IMG/VR virus record: IMGVR_UViG_3300009155_000059
Location: 1 to 64,000 of that record
Source of the DNA: a virus
Strand: one strand, 5' to 3'
DNA length: 64,000 nucleotides
Made by a program: the position numbers and the translations under genes. This document shows, one piece after another, positions 11,333 to 61,436 of the stretch. The notes below the pieces were generated by a model. The model worked only from the letters and a program-made list of their open reading frames with translations, was not told the DNA's origin and ran no database searches. Numbering within the stretch: position 1 is the first letter of the stretch; every line of letters begins with the position of its first letter.

Positions 11333-12676
11333 CTACGGCACTTGAACTCCGGTCCCGTTAGAATCCCACCGGCTTACATAAATGTCAGTCAGCCATCCTG
11401 TCGTTATCTTAAACGTATGACGAAAACCATATACACACCAATTACCATTTGCCCAATATGGTCCCTGCTCGTTTGCTAAAGCCCATCTAATGTACACTGT
11501 ATCGACACCAAGGCCTTTGGTGTCTGCAAATTCACCGTCACCTGGAACAGTTATTACGCCTTTCAATTCATTGTTTAGAAGACCGAAATAATAAGCTCTG
11601 GCCTTCCCATCGAGATAATCTTGATATGGCACACCTATCTCACCCCCAGAGTACATTTCTGGCATTGAATTGAAATTCGTCATCCCGATACCAAGTGCAA
11701 TCTGCGTTTGTGGGTTAGTGACAGCATCGACTACTGAGCCAGGGTCCGGACCTTCAAAGCTACCCGCAGGCGATACTTTGGGGATTTGTTTAGTTGCAGT
11801 GTAATTTTCTCCCACTACGCAGTATGAATAAACAGGGTAATTATTAAATACTGACTGGTTATCATTACTGAAATACGCATTATATGTGCTCGGTGTCCCT
11901 GCGCTAGAAATGGCGCCAGCTACTACGAATTGGCTATTGTTAGAAATTATTCGGCCAGTAAGAAGGGTATTGGGCAGACCCTGACCTGCGCTATAAAATC
12001 TCCTCTGTCTGCTAGGTATCTGTCCCTGCGTTCCTATATTAAGAGTGAAACCATCCGTCTCGATAATAATACCAGTCTGATCATATGTTAACGCTGCACC
12101 ATATTCGAGCAAATTCATTAAGAACGTCTTATAATCCATTCTGAGCAAATACCATCTCATTGTATCCGATCCACGGAATTTTGTGACCGTAGTGGTGACA
12201 TATAAGAGCACATTATTAAATAATTTGGTTAATGCTTGGTCAAGGCTGCCTACCAACACACCACCGTCAGCAAAAGATGTACTGAGGAAATAGGTCGCAG
12301 GGTCCACAGCGGTAATCTCGGCTTGGCCCTTCTCAAATGGACCTTGACAAAACTCCATAGTGGTCACGATAGCAGTGCGTAGCGGCGTGGCATTATCCGG
12401 TATAGTCACATCGCCACTTGTATTACGGTACTGAAATTCGATATACAATGGTTCCTTTTTTGCTGTCTTAAGATAATCTTTAGCTATTAAATCGTTAAGC
12501 AAAAGCAAGAATGCATCATTTACACGAAATGTGACACTGTAACCATTATTGACCATTCCGGTGAATTCCGCTGAAAACACCTTTGAGCCGTAATCATCAG
12601 TCGGCGTACCGAAGTGTCCCACTTGAAATGATACATAAAAATATGATGCTTTAGATGTCGGTGGTGATCCAGCCAT
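11333..12676 (-). CDS. Putative baseplate hub protein (gp27/gpD-like)
   Basis: A 447-residue protein immediately upstream of the tape-measure gene. It is beta-rich, with strands such as YSVTFRVNDAF and ITAVDPATYFLSTSF plus a helical insert (LDQALTKLFNNVLLYV). It resembles in layout the tandem-barrel hub proteins (T4 gp27, Mu gp44, P2 gpD) that sit on top of the spike. No single motif proves this; the call rests on size, position and fold-like pattern. Its ATG shares bases with the ATG of the divergent gene at 12675. Confidence 0.5.
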   Translation of the reverse strand: MAGSPPTSKASYFYVSFQVGHFGTPTDDYGSKVFSAEFTGMVNNGYSVTFRVNDAFLLLLNDLIAKDYLKTAKKEPLYIEFQYRNTSGDVTIPDNATPLRTAIVTTMEFCQGPFEKGQAEITAVDPATYFLSTSFADGGVLVGSLDQALTKLFNNVLLYVTTTVTKFRGSDTMRWYLLRMDYKTFLMNLLEYGAALTYDQTGIIIETDGFTLNIGTQGQIPSRQRRFYSAGQGLPNTLLTGRIISNNSQFVVAGAISSAGTPSTYNAYFSNDNQSVFNNYPVYSYCVVGENYTATKQIPKVSPAGSFEGPDPGSVVDAVTNPQTQIALGIGMTNFNSMPEMYSGGEIGVPYQDYLDGKARAYYFGLLNNELKGVITVPGDGEFADTKGLGVDTVYIRWALANEQGPYWANGNWCVYGFRHTFKITTGWLTDIYVSRWDSNGTGVQVP

Positions 12677-12950
12677 GGAAATTTGGAACCTTTCTTACGT
12701 ATTACCAGGAAAGCCACCTAGTGAAGTGCTTATATTATATTTAGGTAACAAGAATAACAAATATTGCGGAGTGTTATCCACAGCGTTCGGTAGTGAAGAA
12801 GTCGCTGCGCTGAAAGCTTTAGCAGCAGAATGGAAAAACTACTCGGGTAAAATGCGATATCATACACTGAAAAACATGATTGATGTAAATGCTAATTACC
12901 GTGAATACAAAATGGAATACGCAAATATCATTAAAAAACACGTCCTATGA
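12675..12950 (+). CDS. Small protein of unknown function, embedded on the opposite strand
   Basis: A 91-residue plus-strand frame filling the only gap between the hub and primase genes. Its ATG (12675-12677) shares the CATG tetranucleotide with the ATG of the minus-strand hub gene. Its stop overlaps the primase stop by six bases, so both ends are shared with neighbours. The product is soluble and helical in its second half (EEVAALKALAAEWK). A weak GGTGG precedes the start. No family is recognised. The frame explains the gap well and no minus-strand frame competes. Confidence 0.6.
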   Translation: MEIWNLSYVLPGKPPSEVLILYLGNKNNKYCGVLSTAFGSEEVAALKALAAEWKNYSGKMRYHTLKNMIDVNANYREYKMEYANIIKKHVL

Positions 12951-13991
12951 TCTCTTTTTTTTGTCTTTTTCAGCTGCAGCTATCTGTCTTGTTATTTTAA
13001 TTAATGCCTGCATATCTAAAAGCTGTATGCTATCAGCCATCGCCCTTCTGATACTTGGTTTATCTAAACCGCACTCAGTGATACACTCGTTCCAATCTTT
13101 AGCCCCCGATGGTGGTATCGCATAGAACAACTTAAAGCCATGGGGTTTTAAGATGCCATGATTGGATATGATGCTCCTAAGCCCAGCTAAATCATTATCG
13201 ACCGCAAGAATGATGCCAGACTTAGGCTTAAGAAAACAGACTTTACGAGCTTGCTTCTCAGTTAGCATCGCACCGCCGATGGCACAGCATTGATCACCCA
13301 ACGTCATTTTATCGAAAATCGCCTCTACCAAAATCAGATACCGGTTTGGCTCACAATCATCGAAGCCATATAAAAAATCACTCTTACCAATCTTACTACC
13401 GTCCACATCGACTACATTAGTAGGAAAATTAAATGCTTTATTAATCACACTTCGGCTTTGCCAATAGACCAATTCACCGAACTCGTAGTATGGCCAAAGA
13501 ACCGTGACGCCATTGACATGCAGATTTCCTTTCGTTATCTCAACATCCGAGTATCCTCTTTTTAACAAGTACATTAAAGAGATCAATGACTGCTGGTCTT
13601 CTGTATCTCCACTGATCGGCTTGAACTCCGCAGGTATTGCTATGATTCTAGGATCCGGCTTGCTAATTTGCTCTTTGCTGACCGCATACAAGTCAGCATG
13701 GTCTCCTAATACTGACTTCAACGCCTCTCTGATACTGCACTTTAGGACTTTCGATACGAAATTCAGAAAACTAGTATTGCGTTTTCCAGTATGAGTGATT
13801 GGGCCTGCCCACTCGTTACCGCGCCAATCACCGCAGACACCTTTCTCGATGTTTATGCTAAAATGCTCACCGTCATCATACGTTAAGGGATTGTTTAATA
13901 CTAATTCTACGCCATCTTTCCTTTCCTTGAACTGAAACCGCTTAGCTACCCATGCTTTTATCTTACCAGCTGGTATGTTCGATTTTCCCAT
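12945..13991 (-). CDS. DNA primase, TOPRIM-type
   Basis: A 348-residue primase-like protein that would lay RNA primers for the DnaB-type helicase at 36 kb. The TOPRIM core is visible: VEAIFD (222-227) carries the catalytic Glu, then GGAMLTEKQ (239-247), and AVDNDLAG (263-270) supplies the D-x-D metal motif. The N-terminal 80 residues resemble a primase zinc-binding domain in pattern (HFSINIEKGVCGDW) but lack the four-ligand Cys set. It lies among virion genes, far from the rest of the replication module. T4 gp61 is of similar length (342). Confidence 0.8.
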   Translation of the reverse strand: MGKSNIPAGKIKAWVAKRFQFKERKDGVELVLNNPLTYDDGEHFSINIEKGVCGDWRGNEWAGPITHTGKRNTSFLNFVSKVLKCSIREALKSVLGDHADLYAVSKEQISKPDPRIIAIPAEFKPISGDTEDQQSLISLMYLLKRGYSDVEITKGNLHVNGVTVLWPYYEFGELVYWQSRSVINKAFNFPTNVVDVDGSKIGKSDFLYGFDDCEPNRYLILVEAIFDKMTLGDQCCAIGGAMLTEKQARKVCFLKPKSGIILAVDNDLAGLRSIISNHGILKPHGFKLFYAIPPSGAKDWNECITECGLDKPSIRRAMADSIQLLDMQALIKITRQIAAAEKDKKKRS

Positions 13992-14004
13992 AGCTAGTTC
14001 AATA

Positions 14005-14865
14005 CTATTGGATGCTCAACACGTAGCGTTTTGACACACGTGATTGACCATTTGGTAATACTAATTTAATCTGATAGTTATAGGTGCCCTTCAGAAAATC
14101 GGTAGTATTTAATGGATATTGAATCACATACGGATTAGCCCTGAATGACCCTTGTCTTAACCCTATGGTGCAAGGAGCGTCTTTTATTATCGTCTCGCAA
14201 TTTTGCGTAGTAATGGTGATGTAAGGTTGAAGAAACGGTATCATGGGGTCGACCAGATTATAATTGTAGTCATATAATGGCAAAGGCATCAGCCCAACTT
14301 CGAGTGGCCGAAATTCCGGACTGTAGAATTTTTGGTCTAAAGGTTCGAATCCGAATCTTACAGTCTCTAACCCATCGTCGCAGAACCAGTTATTTGGGTA
14401 GACCCAAAACTGGTGACAACACTTAAGCAGCTTTGCTTCATTGGCTGGATCATCTAATGGACACGTAGGGCAACCTGTGCCGTAATCACAAGGGTCAGTA
14501 GCATAGTAATACCACAGGTCAATATAGACTTCTGGGCATGCAAAGTCATTCGGTATATGAAAGTAGAGATGATACTGTCCCTCTAACGGACCGCTCGGTG
14601 TTGCTGTAACATCGCATGGTGAGACAGGAGTGATAGCATCAGGCTGGCACAATGGAGCCGGATATAATGGGTCACATGGATCCACTACCGGAATGGCTGC
14701 GATTAAATTTCCTGGAATGACACTTGTTTTATAGATCTCGACTTTACGAATTGCATATGGATTGGTTGGCCTACCGCCGAGAAAAAATTCATTATTCAAG
14801 TCCACTATTTCGCCACGGCGAGCTGAGATACGCGGAAAAAAAACAGCAGGTACATTGCATGCCAT
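14005..14865 (-). CDS. Cys-rich virion-associated protein, unknown function
   Basis: A 286-residue protein with many cysteines between residues 60 and 170, including CDPLYPAPLC, CPTCPLDDP and LLKCCHQF. It is also rich in Tyr and Pro. The beta-type C-terminal part ends in a strand pair (YNYQIKLVLP). No family is recognised. It lies between the gp26-like block and the primase and shares the direction of the virion genes. The cysteines could bind metal or form disulfides in an extracellular particle; this is inferred from composition only. Confidence 0.55.
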   Translation of the reverse strand: MACNVPAVFFPRISARRGEIVDLNNEFFLGGRPTNPYAIRKVEIYKTSVIPGNLIAAIPVVDPCDPLYPAPLCQPDAITPVSPCDVTATPSGPLEGQYHLYFHIPNDFACPEVYIDLWYYYATDPCDYGTGCPTCPLDDPANEAKLLKCCHQFWVYPNNWFCDDGLETVRFGFEPLDQKFYSPEFRPLEVGLMPLPLYDYNYNLVDPMIPFLQPYITITTQNCETIIKDAPCTIGLRQGSFRANPYVIQYPLNTTDFLKGTYNYQIKLVLPNGQSRVSKRYVLSIQ

Positions 14866-28465: not shown

Positions 28466-29311
28466 ATGTTCTCGCTACTGCGAACGGACAATAACGTCCA
28501 CAAAGCCACTCTGAATTTACGAACTGCGTCGTCTAAACACAAATGCTTAATCCTTAGTGACGTTCACTGGGATAGCGCCTGGTGTGACCGCAAGATACTC
28601 ACTAAACACCTGGATGAGGCAAAAGCTGCCGATAGTCCTATCTTCATTTTCGGTGATTTCTTTGACGTAATGCAAGGTAAGTGGGACCCAAGAAAATCAT
28701 CCGAGCAACTTAGGCCAGAACACCACGGCCCAAATTACTTAGACCTGTTAGTCAACACTGCAAGCGACTATTTGCTACCTTACAAAGACCAGTTAGCTCT
28801 AATCGGCTACGGCAACCACGAAACAGCTATCATCAAACGCCACGAAGTCGATCTTATCCAACGACTCGTAGGTATCTTACGTAAGGATGGTAGCAAAGTA
28901 GCAACAGGCCAATATTGGGGTTTCGTCCAATTCATCATCCAGTATTCAACACATAGAGACAGCAAGATTCTGCATTACCATCATGGCTACGGCGGTGGTG
29001 GTGAAGTAACCAGAGGTCTTATTGATCACAGCCGAACCAGAGGCCAATACCAAGCTGACATATATGTTTCCGGCCATATCCACAGAAGGAACATGGACGA
29101 AAACATATTGCTACGCTGCAGTAGCAAAGGCAAAATTCGAAGCATAAACCAGATGTTTCTGCGCTGCAGCAGCTACAAGCACGAAGATAGCGGTTATCAC
29201 ATCGAGAAGGGCCGCGCAGCGCGGCCCATTGGCGGATGGTGGCTAGAATTTTCCATGTCACGCAGCGATGACGGAGTGTTTAGTGCTCAAGTAGCAGCAT
29301 TACCCACTTAA
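28466..29311 (+). CDS. Calcineurin-like metallophosphoesterase
   Basis: A 281-residue metallophosphoesterase with all five motifs: SDVHWD (31-36), GDFFD (63-67), GNHE (116-119), YHHG (171-174) and GHIHR (203-207). These bind two metals and hydrolyse phosphodiester or phosphomonoester bonds. The ATG at 28466 follows AGGAGGT by six bases; a GTG at 28445 is unlikely. A leader inverted repeat covers that ribosome binding site. The substrate (nucleic acid, cyclic nucleotide, NAD-like or protein) is unknown. It ends four bases into the dUTPase gene, convergently. Confidence 0.85.
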   Translation: MFSLLRTDNNVHKATLNLRTASSKHKCLILSDVHWDSAWCDRKILTKHLDEAKAADSPIFIFGDFFDVMQGKWDPRKSSEQLRPEHHGPNYLDLLVNTASDYLLPYKDQLALIGYGNHETAIIKRHEVDLIQRLVGILRKDGSKVATGQYWGFVQFIIQYSTHRDSKILHYHHGYGGGGEVTRGLIDHSRTRGQYQADIYVSGHIHRRNMDENILLRCSSKGKIRSINQMFLRCSSYKHEDSGYHIEKGRAARPIGGWWLEFSMSRSDDGVFSAQVAALPT

Positions 29312-29856
29312 TTCGTGCTGCCGAAACCGCCAACTCCCCTGGCGGTTTCATCAACTTTTCCCTCAAGCACGTTGATTTTTAGCGCATGAGTCAATAGCCC
29401 CTGCACTATTCTTTCGCCGTTTTCAATATATTGAATATTTTCATTGTGGTTAGTGATAACTGCCATCAATTCTCCGCGATAATCACTGTCGATTATACCC
29501 ACACTATTCGATAATCGTAACCCTCGCAAACTTGCGCCACTGCGAATAGCAAGCAAAAGAACGTAGTCTGACGAGAATTTAGTCTTAAAGCCGAGAGGAA
29601 TCATGATAGTTTCGCCAGGCTTTACGCCGATTTTGGTCGGCCCGCAGCGAAGCGCCGATAGCCTAGCTACGCTAAGCTTATCGTAATTACGAAATTCTCC
29701 TACGCATTTAAACCAGTGGCGTTTGCCATTTTCATCAATAGCAAATAAGTCCCTGTCTAAACATGCATGAAAGTCTAAGGATGCAGCGCCGACTGTCTGC
29801 TTGACTGGCAAGTCATAAAAATTGTTCTCCAAACGCTCCAGCACAAGTTCTACCAT
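29308..29856 (-). CDS. dut: dUTPase (deoxyuridine 5'-triphosphate nucleotidohydrolase)
   Basis: A 182-residue trimeric-type dUTPase that hydrolyses dUTP to dUMP, keeping uracil out of DNA. All five motifs are present: AASLDF (24-29), RSGAS (105-109), GIIDSDYRGE (120-129), RIVQG (149-153) and the C-terminal RGVGGFGSTN (173-182). A 35-residue insertion between motifs 1 and 2 makes it longer than the usual 150. Its ATG overlaps the stop of the PhoH gene (TAATG). Confidence 0.93.
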   Translation of the reverse strand: MVELVLERLENNFYDLPVKQTVGAASLDFHACLDRDLFAIDENGKRHWFKCVGEFRNYDKLSVARLSALRCGPTKIGVKPGETIMIPLGFKTKFSSDYVLLLAIRSGASLRGLRLSNSVGIIDSDYRGELMAVITNHNENIQYIENGERIVQGLLTHALKINVLEGKVDETARGVGGFGSTN

Positions 29857-33710: not shown

Positions 33711-33856
33711 TATTCCTCTCCTGCGTCTTCTTTGGCCTTAAAAGCCACTCGATTAAAGTCTGAGGCTGGAATAGGCTTATTGGATCCAAAAGTCTTCTTA
33801 CTGACTCCGGACGCCTTCCTCGCCTTCTGCAACAGTTTACGCTTCTGGCGCTTCAT
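33710..33856 (-). CDS. Short basic protein (48 residues), unknown
   Basis: A small frame filling the gap between the polymerase and the UvsY-like candidate. It begins MKRQKRKLLQKARKASG and ends EDAGEE, so it is strongly basic at the N-terminus and acidic at the C-terminus. CAGGA lies five bases before ATG 33856. Its stop forms TAATG with the next gene and its start overlaps the polymerase stop by 20 bases. The tight coupling supports a real gene. It may be a nucleic-acid-binding peptide. Confidence 0.65.
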   Translation of the reverse strand: MKRQKRKLLQKARKASGVSKKTFGSNKPIPASDFNRVAFKAKEDAGEE

Positions 33857-35006
33857 CTGGATCCTGCGCGAAATCATCTGCATATCCCCTTATGATCTTA
33901 TACGGCTTCCATTTTTTCCACTTCTTGCCCACATTGACTCTGACAGGAAATGATGGATCATCTGGTAAAATACCATTAAACGGGTTTACCATTATTCTTG
34001 CCACTTTATCTATCACTTCATTCAACACCCCTACATGATTAGGAACACTTAACACGACAGAATCATGCATGTCACAGATGAAATAAGTCGGGAAATCATG
34101 CTGTACCTTCGCTATTACATTGTGCATGCCATGAGCTACACTACCCTGCAGCATTGCATTCATAATAGCGTTCTTGGATCGATCAGCTATCTGCTTGTAA
34201 GCCCGACCTAAAATCGTGTAAAACACACTGTCGGGTAACATCAATCTGTGACTCACATCCAAAATCCAGTTTGATAACCCAGGAAAGCATGACTTCACAA
34301 TTACGTCATGCCCGTTTAAACTATTGATAGATTTTAAAAGCCTAATTTTACATTGTTCTCTGGTTAACACTTCATCGAATTCATTAGCTCTATCTGCCAT
34401 ATACTGGTATGGGTCAGAATCCGAAAAGCAATTTATAAGCCCTTCGTCTCCGGACAGTAATCCAGCCATGCGCACATCAGCTGAAATCCAGTCTAACTGC
34501 AGATAGACAGATGATTCGTCATTCCTATCATGTGATACACAATCGTGATGCGGATAATTCTGAAGGTCGAACACAGAGCATTTAGTGCGGCTCGTAAAAG
34601 TCTCTAAAGAAAAAACCGGCGACATACGCTTATGATTAATAAATATACCACGTTGATTTATGGTCTCATAGGCATTGATACACCTAGCCATTAAATGCCT
34701 GTATCTGTTAAAATCAGCGTCACCATCAGGCTTACAGCCACCTTCGAAGTAATAACACATTTGTACATTGGAAATCTGGAACAGCCTAGCCGTCCTTACA
34801 TCATCATAACCGACCCGGATGTTTTTAGCTAAAGCTGAATCGATAAAACCCTTTAACTTATCGATCTTGTCAAATACTTCTTTTAATTTCGCTTTGGATC
34901 CTGCTAAGAAAAGATCTATCCTTTTGATCACAGCTTTGGTGCTGATCTCTACGAACTCAGGCCTACCACTGCGATTGTAGGCGGCATGAACGAAAATAGA
35001 TTCCAT
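33837..35006 (-). CDS. Compact family-A DNA polymerase (Pol I-like), exonuclease-less
   Basis: A 389-residue protein with family-A polymerase motifs but no 3'-5' exonuclease domain. The thumb/palm junction has FTSRTKCSVFDLQNYPH, corresponding to the T-x-x-x-R and LQN elements. Motif A is LDWISADVRMAGLLSGDE (catalytic Asp). The O-helix is degenerate (REQCKIRLLKSINSLNG; Arg and Lys kept, Tyr lost). Motif C is CDMHDSVVL (HD kept, Glu of HDE replaced by Ser). Usual Pol I enzymes are 600-900 residues. It may be the C-terminal part of a split polymerase, a specialised enzyme or a DpoZ-like one. Confidence 0.7.
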   Translation of the reverse strand: MESIFVHAAYNRSGRPEFVEISTKAVIKRIDLFLAGSKAKLKEVFDKIDKLKGFIDSALAKNIRVGYDDVRTARLFQISNVQMCYYFEGGCKPDGDADFNRYRHLMARCINAYETINQRGIFINHKRMSPVFSLETFTSRTKCSVFDLQNYPHHDCVSHDRNDESSVYLQLDWISADVRMAGLLSGDEGLINCFSDSDPYQYMADRANEFDEVLTREQCKIRLLKSINSLNGHDVIVKSCFPGLSNWILDVSHRLMLPDSVFYTILGRAYKQIADRSKNAIMNAMLQGSVAHGMHNVIAKVQHDFPTYFICDMHDSVVLSVPNHVGVLNEVIDKVARIMVNPFNGILPDDPSFPVRVNVGKKWKKWKPYKIIRGYADDFAQDPDEAPEA

Positions 35007-56389: not shown

Positions 56390-56824
56390 CTACGTTTGCA
56401 CTTCGACCCATTTCTTGAATAGCTTCAATATCCTAGACCGTTCTAACGATGCAGCTTGCTTTGTGTCGAACAAGCAAGATTCAGGTATTTCGACGTCGTC
56501 TTCATTTGTATAAATGAATTCACCAGTATGCTTACATCTTTCAATGCCCTTCACACAAAACGGTTGTACTTCTACGCTTGCGGTTATAACCATTATTAAA
56601 TCTTCAAAATCATTCCAGCTGACACGAGGTAGTACGCTTGTGTATTTCCATAGATGCTTGAAAGGCCCACTAGAATATAGGACTTTGGGGTGGACTTCTC
56701 GCATCCATTTGTCTGCTGACGCTAGTCTAGGAATTTTTCCAGTTGGCTGTAACATTACATGATATGCAAGATCTCCGATTTTGTACTTTGCCAGCTCCAT
56801 AACTGATACGATTTTCTTTTTCAT
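56390..56824 (-). CDS. Protein of unknown function
   Basis: A 144-residue soluble protein. The middle (KYTSVLPRVSWNDFEDLIMVITASVEVQPF) is beta-type and the end is helical (AASLERSRILKLFKKWVE). The start overlaps the upstream stop by four bases. No family recognised. It belongs to the short operon leading from the PurZ-like gene. Confidence 0.5.
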   Translation of the reverse strand: MKKKIVSVMELAKYKIGDLAYHVMLQPTGKIPRLASADKWMREVHPKVLYSSGPFKHLWKYTSVLPRVSWNDFEDLIMVITASVEVQPFCVKGIERCKHTGEFIYTNEDDVEIPESCLFDTKQAASLERSRILKLFKKWVEVQT

Positions 56825-57033
56825 CCAAGAATCACACGATTTATTGCCTGGTTTACCATAGACTCTGCTACCTGTTTAGTCACACCTTGAATTACTGTCG
56901 ACCATCCAGCTGACTCTAAAATTTCTATTTGATATAGACCACCATCAACCGATTGTCCTGGGCCCGGAACGATCCTAACTGCCTTTGATCCTGCCGCTTT
57001 TATTTTCAATACTGCTTCATTCATGTTAATCAT
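56821..57033 (-). CDS. Small protein, unknown
   Basis: A 70-residue protein. GGAG lies seven bases before ATG 57033. A helix-strand pattern (EAVLKIKAAGSKAVRIVPGP, then GWSTVIQGVTKQVAESMVNQA) suggests a compact alpha/beta fold. Overlaps the upstream gene by eight bases. Function unknown. Confidence 0.5.
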   Translation of the reverse strand: MINMNEAVLKIKAAGSKAVRIVPGPGQSVDGGLYQIEILESAGWSTVIQGVTKQVAESMVNQAINRVILG

Positions 57034-57730
57034 AATATCGCTCCAACCTGCTTAATACTACATGCATGTTATCTACCTTAGTCTTACCTTGCCGCACTAC
57101 CATAGAATGAGCACACCCCACCAACACGCCGTCGCCGATATCTGAAATGCATCCGGCAAAATCCAATTTACCGTCACCTAGCCATTGTGTTCCATGGCCA
57201 GGTAACACATCAACAGTATCTATTATGGCGACACTTTTCATAGGCAAAGACTTCCTAATACTAATATTGATATTATTCAAGATCAACATAGCTTCTAACT
57301 TATAAGACCTGAATTGTTTTGAATGATTAAGTAACCACCAATAATACGGACACACCACAGTCACACCTAATGGTATTAAAGAACTAGCGAACTCCATCGC
57401 TCTATCATAATGATCATCGTAGTGCTTTCTACTGTCGAATTGTAAGCTCAGCCACTTGACTTTATAATAACCTAATAATCCAGTTAGCTTTGTATTAGTT
57501 AAGTCCTCAACCGTGATATTAAATCCGACCAATGCTAAGTTCGATGCTATCAATTTTCCTTTAATATGCTTGTGCTCATCGTCAGACAACTGAGTAAATG
57601 ACTTATACTTATGTTTCCGATACCACACGCGTGAAAAGGACAAGGCCTTGGTGTGAGCCAAGGCCTCGTCAAGATCATCGCTAATCTCATCTAAATATGC
57701 GAATTTATTAGATGATGCAAACGTCATCAT
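57026..57730 (-). CDS. Protein of unknown function next to the PurZ-like gene
   Basis: A 234-residue alpha/beta protein overlapping the PurZ-like gene by 23 bases. It has KWLSLQFDSRKHYDDHYDRAMEFASSLIPLGVTVVCPYY in the middle and IDTVDVLPGHGTQW plus DFAGCISDIGDGVLVGC near the end, a possible Rossmann or TIM-like arrangement. No family recognised. Tight coupling to the purine enzyme suggests a related metabolic role. Confidence 0.5.
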   Translation of the reverse strand: MMTFASSNKFAYLDEISDDLDEALAHTKALSFSRVWYRKHKYKSFTQLSDDEHKHIKGKLIASNLALVGFNITVEDLTNTKLTGLLGYYKVKWLSLQFDSRKHYDDHYDRAMEFASSLIPLGVTVVCPYYWWLLNHSKQFRSYKLEAMLILNNINISIRKSLPMKSVAIIDTVDVLPGHGTQWLGDGKLDFAGCISDIGDGVLVGCAHSMVVRQGKTKVDNMHVVLSRLERYYD

Positions 57731-58829
57731 AAGCTGGCCCAGTCCCTACCATTACTACTGGTAACCTCAATTCATCTTCGATCTTGTGCACGAACGACTG
57801 CACTTTTTGAGGTAACTTATTGTACTCCTTCACCCCGTAACATGACCAATCGATATAATTAACGAATGTCAGTACCAATTTTGTAGCTCCATTGCTTAGA
57901 GCCGCCTGTTTGGCCTGCTGCGCGCTAAATGAGAACATCCGGCGCTGACGCTTAGTGACCGTGGTAATTTCGATACCACGAATGACATCAGGCGGAGCGC
58001 CACATTCAGCTGCTATTTGCTCTATTGTTAACTCGTGTTGATCGGGGTAACAATCTCCGCTGTAGCCTATGACCTTACCGTCCTCGATTACGTTACCAAC
58101 TCGAATAGGATGACATCTAAGCACTAAGTACACATCACCCATACACTGATGTGGCAATCCAAGGTCACTAAGATTTTGTATTGCGGTGGTGCTACGTGAA
58201 GTACATTGGGGATAATGACTACCATGATTAATATCTAATCCGAACCCTTGGCTACCCTCATGGAGAATTGTCATCCCACCACGCATCATAGTAGTAAGAT
58301 ATTCTGGAAGCGACATTCCACTACATTGTTTGCTTGCCATCAATGGTGCTATTTCAGCATAATCTCTAGCGAGTTTGACGTCCTGCTTGCGCAATATTTT
58401 GTCCGATAAACAGGTGGCGCAACCCTGCATTGTGCTTGCCACATGTTTAGTGCTATCTGACCCACACGCTTCTCGCTCCTGATGCTCTTTCGTGATCACA
58501 GCAGCACGATCATGAATCATTAACTTAATGTCGTGACCAACCTGATCTAATTCCGCCTGCAACGTGTCAAGCTTAAATGCGCTAGTAGCACCCATAATAA
58601 CGGTCGGATCATATTTATCTAACCATTTACGCATTATAGTTGGCGCTGGTAAAGCCTTGCTGACAAATTTGCTCCCATCTGGTGATACAGCTGTATGGCC
58701 AGCATTCGCCATATTCGTGTTGGTAAGTATCTCAGGTCTGTACCTGTACACTAAGGCGCTGCTGACATGACCTTTACCTGTGCTACCGTAGTTGCCGTCT
58801 GTTACCACATTGAATTTTCCCTTTTGCAT
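57708..58829 (-). CDS. PurZ-like adenylosuccinate-synthetase homologue
   Basis: A 373-residue PurA-superfamily protein. The nucleotide loop reads DGNYGSTGKG; PurA has GDEGKG with a catalytic Asp, here Ser16 (GSTGKG, 15-20). NAGHT (42-46) keeps the catalytic His. EGSQGFGLDINHG (191-203) and the STTAI element match the substrate region, and VGTGPAYDD the C-terminus. PurZ proteins, which make the 2-aminoadenine precursor from dGMP and aspartate, carry this loss of Asp, as I recall from the S-2L literature. So the likely reaction is dGMP + Asp + NTP, not IMP. Family members of other specificity cannot be excluded by eye. Confidence 0.75.
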   Translation of the reverse strand: MQKGKFNVVTDGNYGSTGKGHVSSALVYRYRPEILTNTNMANAGHTAVSPDGSKFVSKALPAPTIMRKWLDKYDPTVIMGATSAFKLDTLQAELDQVGHDIKLMIHDRAAVITKEHQEREACGSDSTKHVASTMQGCATCLSDKILRKQDVKLARDYAEIAPLMASKQCSGMSLPEYLTTMMRGGMTILHEGSQGFGLDINHGSHYPQCTSRSTTAIQNLSDLGLPHQCMGDVYLVLRCHPIRVGNVIEDGKVIGYSGDCYPDQHELTIEQIAAECGAPPDVIRGIEITTVTKRQRRMFSFSAQQAKQAALSNGATKLVLTFVNYIDWSCYGVKEYNKLPQKVQSFVHKIEDELRLPVVMVGTGPAYDDVCII

Positions 58830-58885: not shown

Positions 58886-59578
58886 TCACACTGGGGTACT
58901 ATGCCGTTCTTCCTGAGCCAGTGCATACTCATTTATAATGACTTTAGCAAAAGCCAAAGAGACACCATATCGAGCAGCGCCTATTAAATCAATGTCTTGT
59001 ATCGTTTGAATATTACCACACATTTTAATAGGAACGCCGACTGCTTCGAACAATTTGGTCCTGATCTCTATATTATATGATCGACTGACCTTATTGGCAG
59101 GCGCTTTGCTAGCAAATCCAAACCGCACATAAGCAGGATTGCGAATACCATGAAACAACCCGGCCAACTCCGCAATAGATGCCACATCAGTCTTGGTAGA
59201 TGGAACTACGAACCTGATCTCCTGCGTCGGACCGAGATACGTCCTAATGAAGTCAGTGCACACTCTAGCTTCATTTTTTAAATCCATTATTGATTTACCT
59301 GAACTCATTACGATCTCGAACGCATCGCCCTCTAAACTATCAATAGTAAGTCCGCGGAATTTTAGATTACCGAAATGATCTCCTTTTGGCCAATCTATTG
59401 GCACTACCACTTTGAACTTGCCTCTGACCTTATTTCTTATGATCAATGCGTCCGAACTCAGTCCCTGGTGGACTACCACAGCAGGCAAATTATGCTTCGC
59501 AGCGAACTCCATGCACTCTAACATTTCGCTAATTTGAAAACAGTCGAGTTCTAACTTACTGATCGGATTGCCATTCAT
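58886..59578 (-). CDS. DeoC-like TIM-barrel aldolase candidate
   Basis: A 230-residue protein. KFKVVVPIDWPKGD, FRGLTIDSLEGDAFEIVMSSGK, then FVVPSTKTD and VRFGFASKAP, and a final KMCGNIQTIQDIDLIGAARYGVSLAFAK are spaced like the strands of a deoxyribose-phosphate aldolase barrel (the last as the G-G-I-x-T segment). Lysines fit at the K-T and K positions but catalytic identity is not certain. It could feed or drain deoxynucleotide sugars for the adjacent purine enzyme. Confidence 0.5.
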   Translation of the reverse strand: MNGNPISKLELDCFQISEMLECMEFAAKHNLPAVVVHQGLSSDALIIRNKVRGKFKVVVPIDWPKGDHFGNLKFRGLTIDSLEGDAFEIVMSSGKSIMDLKNEARVCTDFIRTYLGPTQEIRFVVPSTKTDVASIAELAGLFHGIRNPAYVRFGFASKAPANKVSRSYNIEIRTKLFEAVGVPIKMCGNIQTIQDIDLIGAARYGVSLAFAKVIINEYALAQEERHSTPV

Positions 59579-59614: not shown

Positions 59615-60652
59615 CTAGAATTCAACTGATGGGCTAACATCAGCGCCCCAACGAGCGATAGCCAACTCTAGTCCTTCTTGCGCAGAGTGGTTGCTGAAAT
59701 GCTTAACGAACGGCCATGTGTTGTATTCACTACAAAAATGAATGTTCTGCCTCCGCTCCTCAGCGATATTATTAACCGCTTGCATGAAACAATCAGCCTC
59801 AGCCTTAAATCGCTCAACACGCACATGAGGCGGCACGTCAGGATTAGTCCCGTAAAAATGCAATTTACCATCGATACCTTTAGCATCCATGTCTACACCG
59901 AACACAAATATCTCATCATACTTCATCCATTCAGCCACTTGCAAAGCTGCGAAGACACTGCTACGACCAATGGCTAATCCTCTTAGTAGATCAGTGCTGA
60001 ACGTTTGTTGTCCCAAATTCCTAAGCCTCAGATGATTTGCGTGACAATTTGCAATACTGCTACCTGTGACAATGATTCCTTTGTAGTCAGCCAATAGCGC
60101 TTTATGCCTTCGATATTGGCTACTATCAAAGAAGCACCAGTATTGAGTTGGCCATACTCTTGTGTCTGGATTATTAATACTGCAAATATCGATCCGTTTT
60201 TTATCCTTGAGCTCTGCCAGATCTACGGTAGCAATGCTCGGTCCGTTCCCAATTATCATCAAAGCACGCCCTACCCCCACGTCTTTCAACCGATTTATGA
60301 AAGCAGACTGAACTGGTAAATCTTTGTCACTCGAATATTGGATTACCGGCCCTCGCCGTCTCGTCACTTGCTGCGACGACGGCTGAGACGGCGACTTGAC
60401 GCCAGCCCTGCTGGCATTATAAAGATTTACTCTTGACTCATTCGCTTGTTCTATGATTTGTGATACTGGCTGTCTAGTACTAGGATCTAATCTGACCACA
60501 GATGGTGCGACGTAATTTGGATTCTGTTGCTGCCTCATTACAGGCGGCTTGGGCGCAGCAACATTCTGTTGATTTTTATTTTGCTCCACGTACACTCGAA
60601 CGGCTTTAGGAAGCTGAATATTTACCTTTTGCCGTCTTGGATTAATCATCAA
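59615..60652 (-). CDS. DUF115-like (glycosyltransferase-fold) protein with disordered N-terminus
   Basis: A 345-residue protein. Residues 1-110 are Gln/Pro/Ser-rich and probably disordered. Residues 125-345 include RALMIIGNGPSIATVDLAEL and YWCFFDSSQYRRHKALL, with GIIVTGSSIANC and FVFGVDMDAKG. This G-N-G-P-S pattern is that of DUF115/6-hydroxymethylpterin or motility-associated glycosyltransferase-like proteins. The acceptor is unknown. It may extend the glycan work of the 39-49 kb cluster. Confidence 0.55.
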   Translation of the reverse strand: MMINPRRQKVNIQLPKAVRVYVEQNKNQQNVAAPKPPVMRQQQNPNYVAPSVVRLDPSTRQPVSQIIEQANESRVNLYNASRAGVKSPSQPSSQQVTRRRGPVIQYSSDKDLPVQSAFINRLKDVGVGRALMIIGNGPSIATVDLAELKDKKRIDICSINNPDTRVWPTQYWCFFDSSQYRRHKALLADYKGIIVTGSSIANCHANHLRLRNLGQQTFSTDLLRGLAIGRSSVFAALQVAEWMKYDEIFVFGVDMDAKGIDGKLHFYGTNPDVPPHVRVERFKAEADCFMQAVNNIAEERRQNIHFCSEYNTWPFVKHFSNHSAQEGLELAIARWGADVSPSVEF

Positions 60653-61386
60653 TCTAGCCCTTGCTTATTTATTCTAAAACTGCGACAATTTGCGGGAGCT
60701 CTACCATTTTGTATAGCTGCACCTAGCTTATATTGCCCTTCCTTTATATGTTTACGCTTATTCATCACACTATAAAGGCACCTATATATGGTAGTTGTCA
60801 ATAAGTTAAATACCGGTGCCTTACCAGGCATATATTTCAATTTTTTATTCTTAAGCTTCTGTAAAACCTGCAATAATGCTTCATGTATTAATTCTAAATG
60901 CTCTTCCTCGCCATTAGGTTTGAATTTTTGCGCTATGCCACTACACATCTGTTTTATGTCGAACAGTAGAGCATGCCAAGCTTCCTGTTCAGGAATCTCT
61001 TGAACATATTCCTCTTGCTCTAACTCTGCCACGATTTTCTCAGATGGCTTACCTATAATAGGGAATGCCTCTGACAGGCTTTTTAGCGAAGCTGTATTGA
61101 CAAACCGGACTGAGTGTTGTATAATGAAAAAATCAACAATCTCGCCGTCACATGTGCTGAAATATACCGGAGTCTCAAATGGTAGGCAATGATGCTTCAA
61201 TGGGCTTGATGGATCGAATAATGGCTTCCCGTTCTTATACAATGCCACTCCATCCTTATGGACGTGGATGTCTGGTTTTGAAAACAATAAACCATGATTG
61301 CGAAAAGGTTCTAGCTCTGGTGTTGCGCTAGCTAACAGCCAAGTAAACCATTTCTGTTCCAACAGATCAGAGTTGCAATACGCCAT
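60649..61386 (-). CDS. Putative late sigma factor, gp55-like
   Basis: A 245-residue protein. Its C-terminal half resembles T4 gp55, the sigma-like late transcription factor: an amphipathic helix (HALLFDIKQMCSGIAQKF), ELIHEALLQVLQKLKNKKLKYMPGKAPVFNLLTTTIYRCLYSVMNKRKH reads like the region-2 core helix with aromatic and basic residues for promoter opening. N-terminal 100 residues have no match. ATG 61386 has AGGGG upstream. It may direct transcription of the virion module. Divergent from a zinc-ribbon gene at 61437. Confidence 0.55.
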   Translation of the reverse strand: MAYCNSDLLEQKWFTWLLASATPELEPFRNHGLLFSKPDIHVHKDGVALYKNGKPLFDPSSPLKHHCLPFETPVYFSTCDGEIVDFFIIQHSVRFVNTASLKSLSEAFPIIGKPSEKIVAELEQEEYVQEIPEQEAWHALLFDIKQMCSGIAQKFKPNGEEEHLELIHEALLQVLQKLKNKKLKYMPGKAPVFNLLTTTIYRCLYSVMNKRKHIKEGQYKLGAAIQNGRAPANCRSFRINKQGLD

Positions 61387-61436
61387 ATTTCGATCCCCTT
61401 TCACATTTCAATACACAGAGTTTCAAGGAGGATATG
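61387..61436. promoter_or_regulatory. Short divergent promoter region
   Basis: A 50-base gap between divergent sigma-like and zinc-ribbon genes. Ribosome sites for both are visible (AGGGG, AGGAGG). The gap is too short for two separate typical promoters, so promoters probably overlap the coding ends. No consensus was identified. Confidence 0.3.

Follow-up and report, generated by a model that had tools for sequence, protein, structure and literature searches.

Phages with 2-aminoadenine (Z) DNA that are described in the surveyed literature are sipho- or podoviruses (e.g. PMC8599892), and a search of the open-licence literature, a body that most subscription journals lie outside, yielded no paper describing PurZ in a jumbo or myo-type phage. 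Among the described systems, the PurZ0 phages, such as Arthrobacter phage Wayne and Gordonia phage Ghobes, encode DutZ and DmtZ (PMC12884076) and, like the system reported here, combine a PurZ-type enzyme with genes of the dUTPase and NDT families in place of DatZ and MazZ. The fetched PurZ0 sequences carry the motif GSEAKG and fall outside the PurZ group discussed below. Another point of comparison is Bacillus phage vB_BpsS-140, whose PurZ-like protein (GSEGKG) has about 35% identity to the protein studied here and occupies a deep separate branch of the same PurZ tree group. In this 55-kb genome no cassette of the kind described below is annotated around the PurZ-like gene, and the annotation of the fetched 17-kb region lists neither a DatZ nor a MazZ gene.

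The locus lies in a stretch of 64,000 nt, here called the window, which corresponds to bases 1-64,000 of IMGVR_UViG_3300009155_000059, a linear fragment of 75,177 bases. The presence of tail sheath, tail tube and baseplate wedge genes in the window identifies the virus as a contractile-tailed phage. Its purZ-lineage gene (57708-58829, minus strand) encodes 373 aa and shares with known phage PurZ of the same tree group the replacement of Asp by Ser, the Thr tip loop and the guanine pocket residues. In contrast to known PurZ systems, to whose enzymes its identity is only about 32-33% (tblastn) and from which it is separated on a supported branch, the window enzyme retains an arginine at position 294, is carried by a contractile-tailed phage, has no adjacent DatZ or MazZ gene, and belongs to a cassette with DERA-fold, NDT and TIM-barrel neighbours. 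Relatives detected in scans of viral contigs showed 33-55% identity, apart from one at 100%, and came from contigs of up to 408 kb, those of close relatives being longer than 150 kb; all are metagenomic viral contigs and possibly incomplete. In the phage record collection all matches were below 60% identity, with about 35% the best among the matches listed.

Placement of the synthetase among PurZ and PurA

The initial annotation had described the protein as PurZ-like rather than PurA, and this is borne out by the tree, the residues and the best PHROGs, NCBIfam and PDB sequence matches. The protein scored 115.9 bits against PF00709 (cutoff 27), and its best PHROGs match was PHROG 1211, '2-aminooxy adenylosuccinate synthetase', the PurZ family (3.1e-56). 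The top NCBIfam model was NF038379 (PurZ) at 211.5 bits, which falls short of the curated cutoff of 300 bits, and the next was a PurA-type model at 200.8 bits. In a sequence search of the PDB, the PurZ proteins of phiVC8 (1.7e-39) and S-2L ranked above every PurA; likewise, a family profile gave 1e-75 for phiVC8 PurZ and 4e-62 for Pyrococcus PurA. A maximum likelihood tree of 50 sequences (LG+C20) placed the window protein within a branch of 22 large-phage members (support 100/97), nested in a 36-member PurZ group (100/98) that includes the proteins of phiVC8, S-2L, SH-Ab 15497, PSA28, Bm1, BUCT555 and BpsS-140. Outside this group are PurA of E. coli and other organisms, the rhizobial plasmid enzymes, and PurZ0 of Wayne, Hiyaa, Archimedes and Johann. 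Tree placement combined with residue comparison, the check that had been proposed at the outset, therefore groups the protein with PurZ and with neither PurA nor PurZ0, the latter being ruled out by its position in a separate group.

The ORF and both motifs on which the initial annotation had relied, a P-loop with GSTGKG in place of GDEGKG and a retained NAGHT histidine, were verified. The P-loop (15-GSTGKG-20) has Ser16 where E. coli PurA has Asp13, and the conservation of this serine in all 22 branch members excludes a sequencing error or chance. The catalytic His45, within 42-NAGHT-46, is kept throughout the branch as well. Also invariant in the branch are the residues that form the pocket of S-2L PurZ (Ser16, Asn42, Ala43, Thr133, Gln194, Val244 and Thr289-Thr292), and the PurZ-specific Thr273 and Gln/Asn308 (S-2L numbers) correspond to Thr289 and Asn324 of the window protein. 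A PurA function, in which the protein would raise the amount of AMP made from IMP in the host, is very unlikely, since the catalytic Asp, 99% conserved within the PurA group (PMC12884076), is Ser in every branch member and the tree excludes PurA (100/98); tree and residues together rule out an ordinary PurA. What speaks for such a function is membership in PF00709 and the single best structural match. An AlphaFold2 model (pLDDT 86), built from an alignment of 17 sequences comprising the window protein and viral contigs only, retrieved Pyrococcus PurA (5k7x, 9.1e-29) and then phiVC8 PurZ (1.1e-27) in Foldseek, values so close that PurZ and PurA are not separable by fold alone. On the basis of sequence comparison, the protein is a PurZ-lineage enzyme that represents a new supported branch distinct from both PurA and PurZ0.

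Which nucleotide this PurZ-lineage enzyme uses is a separate question. In E. coli PurA, Arg303 contacts the 2'-OH of IMP, and its equivalent is Leu or Lys in the aligned PurZ of S-2L, SH-Ab and phiVC8, whereas the branch keeps it as Arg294 in all 22 members. Loss of this arginine is a described difference between PurA and PurZ and not a family-defining one; its retention makes a ribonucleotide substrate possible. The enzyme might thus use GMP to form 2-aminoadenosine nucleotides that are later converted by ribonucleotide reductase or serve a role outside DNA. We consider this improbable, because the branch falls within a group of dGMP-using PurZ and because all 22 members have the insertion after Val244 (S-2L Val241; starting with Asn246 in the window protein), which in S-2L PurZ deforms a loop and so moves the valine nearer C2'. 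The length of this insertion is not diagnostic, since those of phiVC8 and Wayne are shorter. Use of dGMP accordingly remains the preferred assignment.

The chance that the gene is a decayed or inactive PurZ relic appears slighter still than that of a PurA function. Some positions in the window copy, Gln295 among them, deviate from the consensus of the branch, but the copy has a full-length frame, keeps the compared active-site residues and is 53-58% identical to four intact relatives. Moreover, contig 3300010885_063902, perhaps from the same virus, carries an identical copy.

Several further homologues were observed. Plasmids of Agrobacterium, Methylobacterium and Sinorhizobium (L119, L120, L121) encode non-phage adenylosuccinate synthetase homologues with GSEGKG and Ser for the catalytic Asp, and Rhizobium leguminosarum plasmid pRL23b2 (L122) has a short PurA homologue with the Asp kept, located between folE and purB. 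A PurZ-group sequence with GSTAKG and 38% identity was found on a 6.5-kb Deltaproteobacteria MAG contig from a bacterial bin (JAJFLM010000167.1, L100), which could be a phage fragment. Two purZ ORFs are enlarged. In that of contig 3300045256_000294 (L095:4872-8510, 1212 aa), two intein-like insertions were recognised by eye, the one following NAGH and the other preceding CTSR; in that of contig 3300033153_009805 (L180:13372-15627, 751 aa), this CTSR site is likewise interrupted by an intein-like insertion.

The conserved cassette around purZ

In the relatives, purZ is part of a cassette in the order NDT (PF05014), DERA-fold protein, zinc ribbon, small 'coil' protein, purZ, xylose-isomerase-like TIM barrel (PF01261) and a 144-aa protein. 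Profile searches on mechanically called ORFs covered 20 loci with a DERA-fold gene near purZ; 18 of them have the NDT gene and 16 the TIM protein. A profile search of the window's 75,177-base record detected no zinc ribbon, coil or NDT gene. The remaining components are present on the minus strand: the DERA-fold gene (58886-59578) starts the series 56 bases upstream of purZ, and a gene that overlaps purZ by 23 bases (57026-57730) encodes a diverged homologue of the TIM protein of the relatives (hhalign probability 93.7%, E 1.8e-7), a weak but significant match that rules out an unrelated orphan. Further along lies the gene for the conserved 144-aa protein of unknown function (56390-56824, minus strand), which is found downstream in the cassette of the relatives at 37-48% identity. 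The other flank of the cassette is conserved too and consists of an MptE-like/sialyltransferase-like protein, so named from weak matches (59615-60652, minus strand), and a 251-aa protein (60649-61404, minus strand).

The proposal that the two neighbours of purZ, then described as an unknown gene and an aldolase-like gene, might be pathway partners gains from the membership of both in the conserved cassette, but its description of them needs revision, as the first is a diverged TIM-barrel homologue and not an orphan, and the second carries Arg152 in a DERA fold. The model of this DeoC-like TIM barrel of 230 aa (pLDDT 77) gave deoxyribose-phosphate aldolases as its leading Foldseek PDB matches (best E 1.3e-10), while a comparison with E. 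coli DeoC yielded no significant sequence match. The fold and Lys185, on strand 7 and kept in 16 of 17 sequences, are common to DeoC/DERA and the cassette protein. The position on strand 6 that we take, from strand order and the known features of DERA rather than from a superposition, to be that of the Schiff-base Lys is presumably Arg152, and it is Arg in 17 of 17 sequences. This rules out a plain DERA, and the invariance of the arginine hints at an altered reaction.

The association of the DERA-fold gene with PurZ was recovered by two routes. A scan seeded with the DERA-fold protein brought up 18 contigs, each with a PurZ-profile match in the fetched locus, and a flanking gene led to three more DERA-fold contigs, all encoding PF00709 proteins (21 of 21 in total); some of these contigs are near-identical and hence not all are independent. 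In two of them (G029 and G030) the PF00709 gene, a weak match in G030, lies elsewhere on the contig and far from the DERA-fold gene, so that a constant adjacency to purZ would be too strong a statement. A scan with a flanking gene for relatives without the cassette returned only contigs that were already known. On contig 3300010413_002638 the cassette is intact and the purZ slot is taken by a very diverged homologue (L113:7466-8650) with GSSGKG and an end branch of 1.85, a possible replacement. In another relative (G004), KDO8P-synthase-like and dCMP-deaminase-like genes (L042:1573-2403 and 2434-2940) adjoin the cassette by eye.

Nucleotide-pool genes and polymerases

The initial annotation had reported neither DatZ nor MazZ in the window, and likewise neither was found across the 75,177-base record, a linear fragment, or in the fetched relatives G002-G005. 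HD_3 was found only in the jumbo contigs G018 and G019, whose two proteins score E 6.6e-13 and 9.8e-15 against a DatZ profile. Next to the DatZ-like gene, G018 has a weak match to the MazG profile (0.0027), and a similar protein is seen by eye in G019. Both contigs belong to the same PurZ branch as the window, are without the cassette and encode long family A polymerases. PurB-type lyases were found in G003, G016, G019 and G027.

These observations bear on whether PurZ, NDT, the DERA-fold protein and the isomerase-like protein together make some other base or sugar hypermodification. We regard this reading as unlikely. The absence of DERA-fold and isomerase-like proteins from descriptions of Z phages in the surveyed literature would fit it, as would the invariant arginine at the aldolase lysine position. 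It is opposed by the DatZ-like genes of the branch members without a cassette, which these contigs share with known Z phages, and by the finding that DmtZ, a member of the NDT family, is a known Z-phage enzyme (PMC12884076). The NDT proteins of the relatives lack the Asp/Asn pattern of DmtZ in alignment.

A candidate for control of the dATP pool in support of Z-DNA synthesis is a branch-specific dUTPase-family protein of 182 aa (29308-29856, minus strand), which may be a dNTP pyrophosphatase or an ordinary dUTPase. Nine contigs encode it, and two of them have a canonical dUTPase in addition. Its identification as DutZ is unsupported, since it stood apart from DutZ in a weakly supported tree with few strongly supported branches. 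In one relative (G022, L154:238-1368) this protein is fused to an N-terminal DHFR-like sequence, as judged by eye, a fusion that fits ordinary thymidylate metabolism.

With respect to replication, the window encodes a short, diverged family A DNA polymerase homologue of 389 aa (33837-35006, minus strand), and no full-length DpoZ-like polymerase was found in its record. Family A matches are widespread among the relatives and mostly short. Of 20 contigs, 16 yielded a family C polymerase, which was not found in the window's record. No family B polymerase was found in six records. In G003 the DNA polymerase III alpha subunit consists of two genes split within PF07733 (L024:8275-9699 and 11545-14283), and several other relatives suggest such a split as well. 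According to PMC8065100, the PrimPol of S-2L incorporates both A and Z, which indicates that DpoZ is not required for a Z genome.

Proposed pathway and its implications

Taken by analogy with characterised PurZ families, from which we infer the reaction and hypothesise a Z genome, the enzyme is probably a PurZ-type synthetase, most likely dGMP-using, that would contribute to dZTP replacing dATP in the phage DNA. The enzyme would attach aspartate at position 6 of a guanine nucleotide, dGMP being the likeliest, to give N6-succino-2-amino-dAMP. An adenylosuccinate lyase, either PurB of the host or, in some relatives, a phage PurB, would act on this product, host kinases would then yield dZTP, and a phage polymerase would insert it in place of dATP. 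More speculatively, the dUTPase-family protein could act as a pyrophosphatase that lowers the competing dATP in lieu of DatZ and MazZ, the NDT-family enzyme could cleave dAMP to release adenine and deoxyribose 5-phosphate, a sugar phosphate on which the DERA-fold and isomerase-like proteins could act.

A broader proposal, which we put forward tentatively and do not hold to be likely as a whole, is that large contractile-tailed and jumbo phages make Z-DNA via a third PurZ lineage, with a new route of dATP control that would comprise the dUTPase-family pyrophosphatase, the NDT-family hydrolase/transferase, the lysine-less DERA-fold protein and the isomerase-like protein, and with a family C polymerase copying the Z-DNA. 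If true, the occurrence of this PurZ branch on contigs of up to 408 kb would extend 2-aminoadenine DNA to large phages, and Z-DNA in most carriers of the branch would involve a different family of replication polymerase. The cassette itself offers testable candidates for the removal of dATP without DatZ or MazZ.
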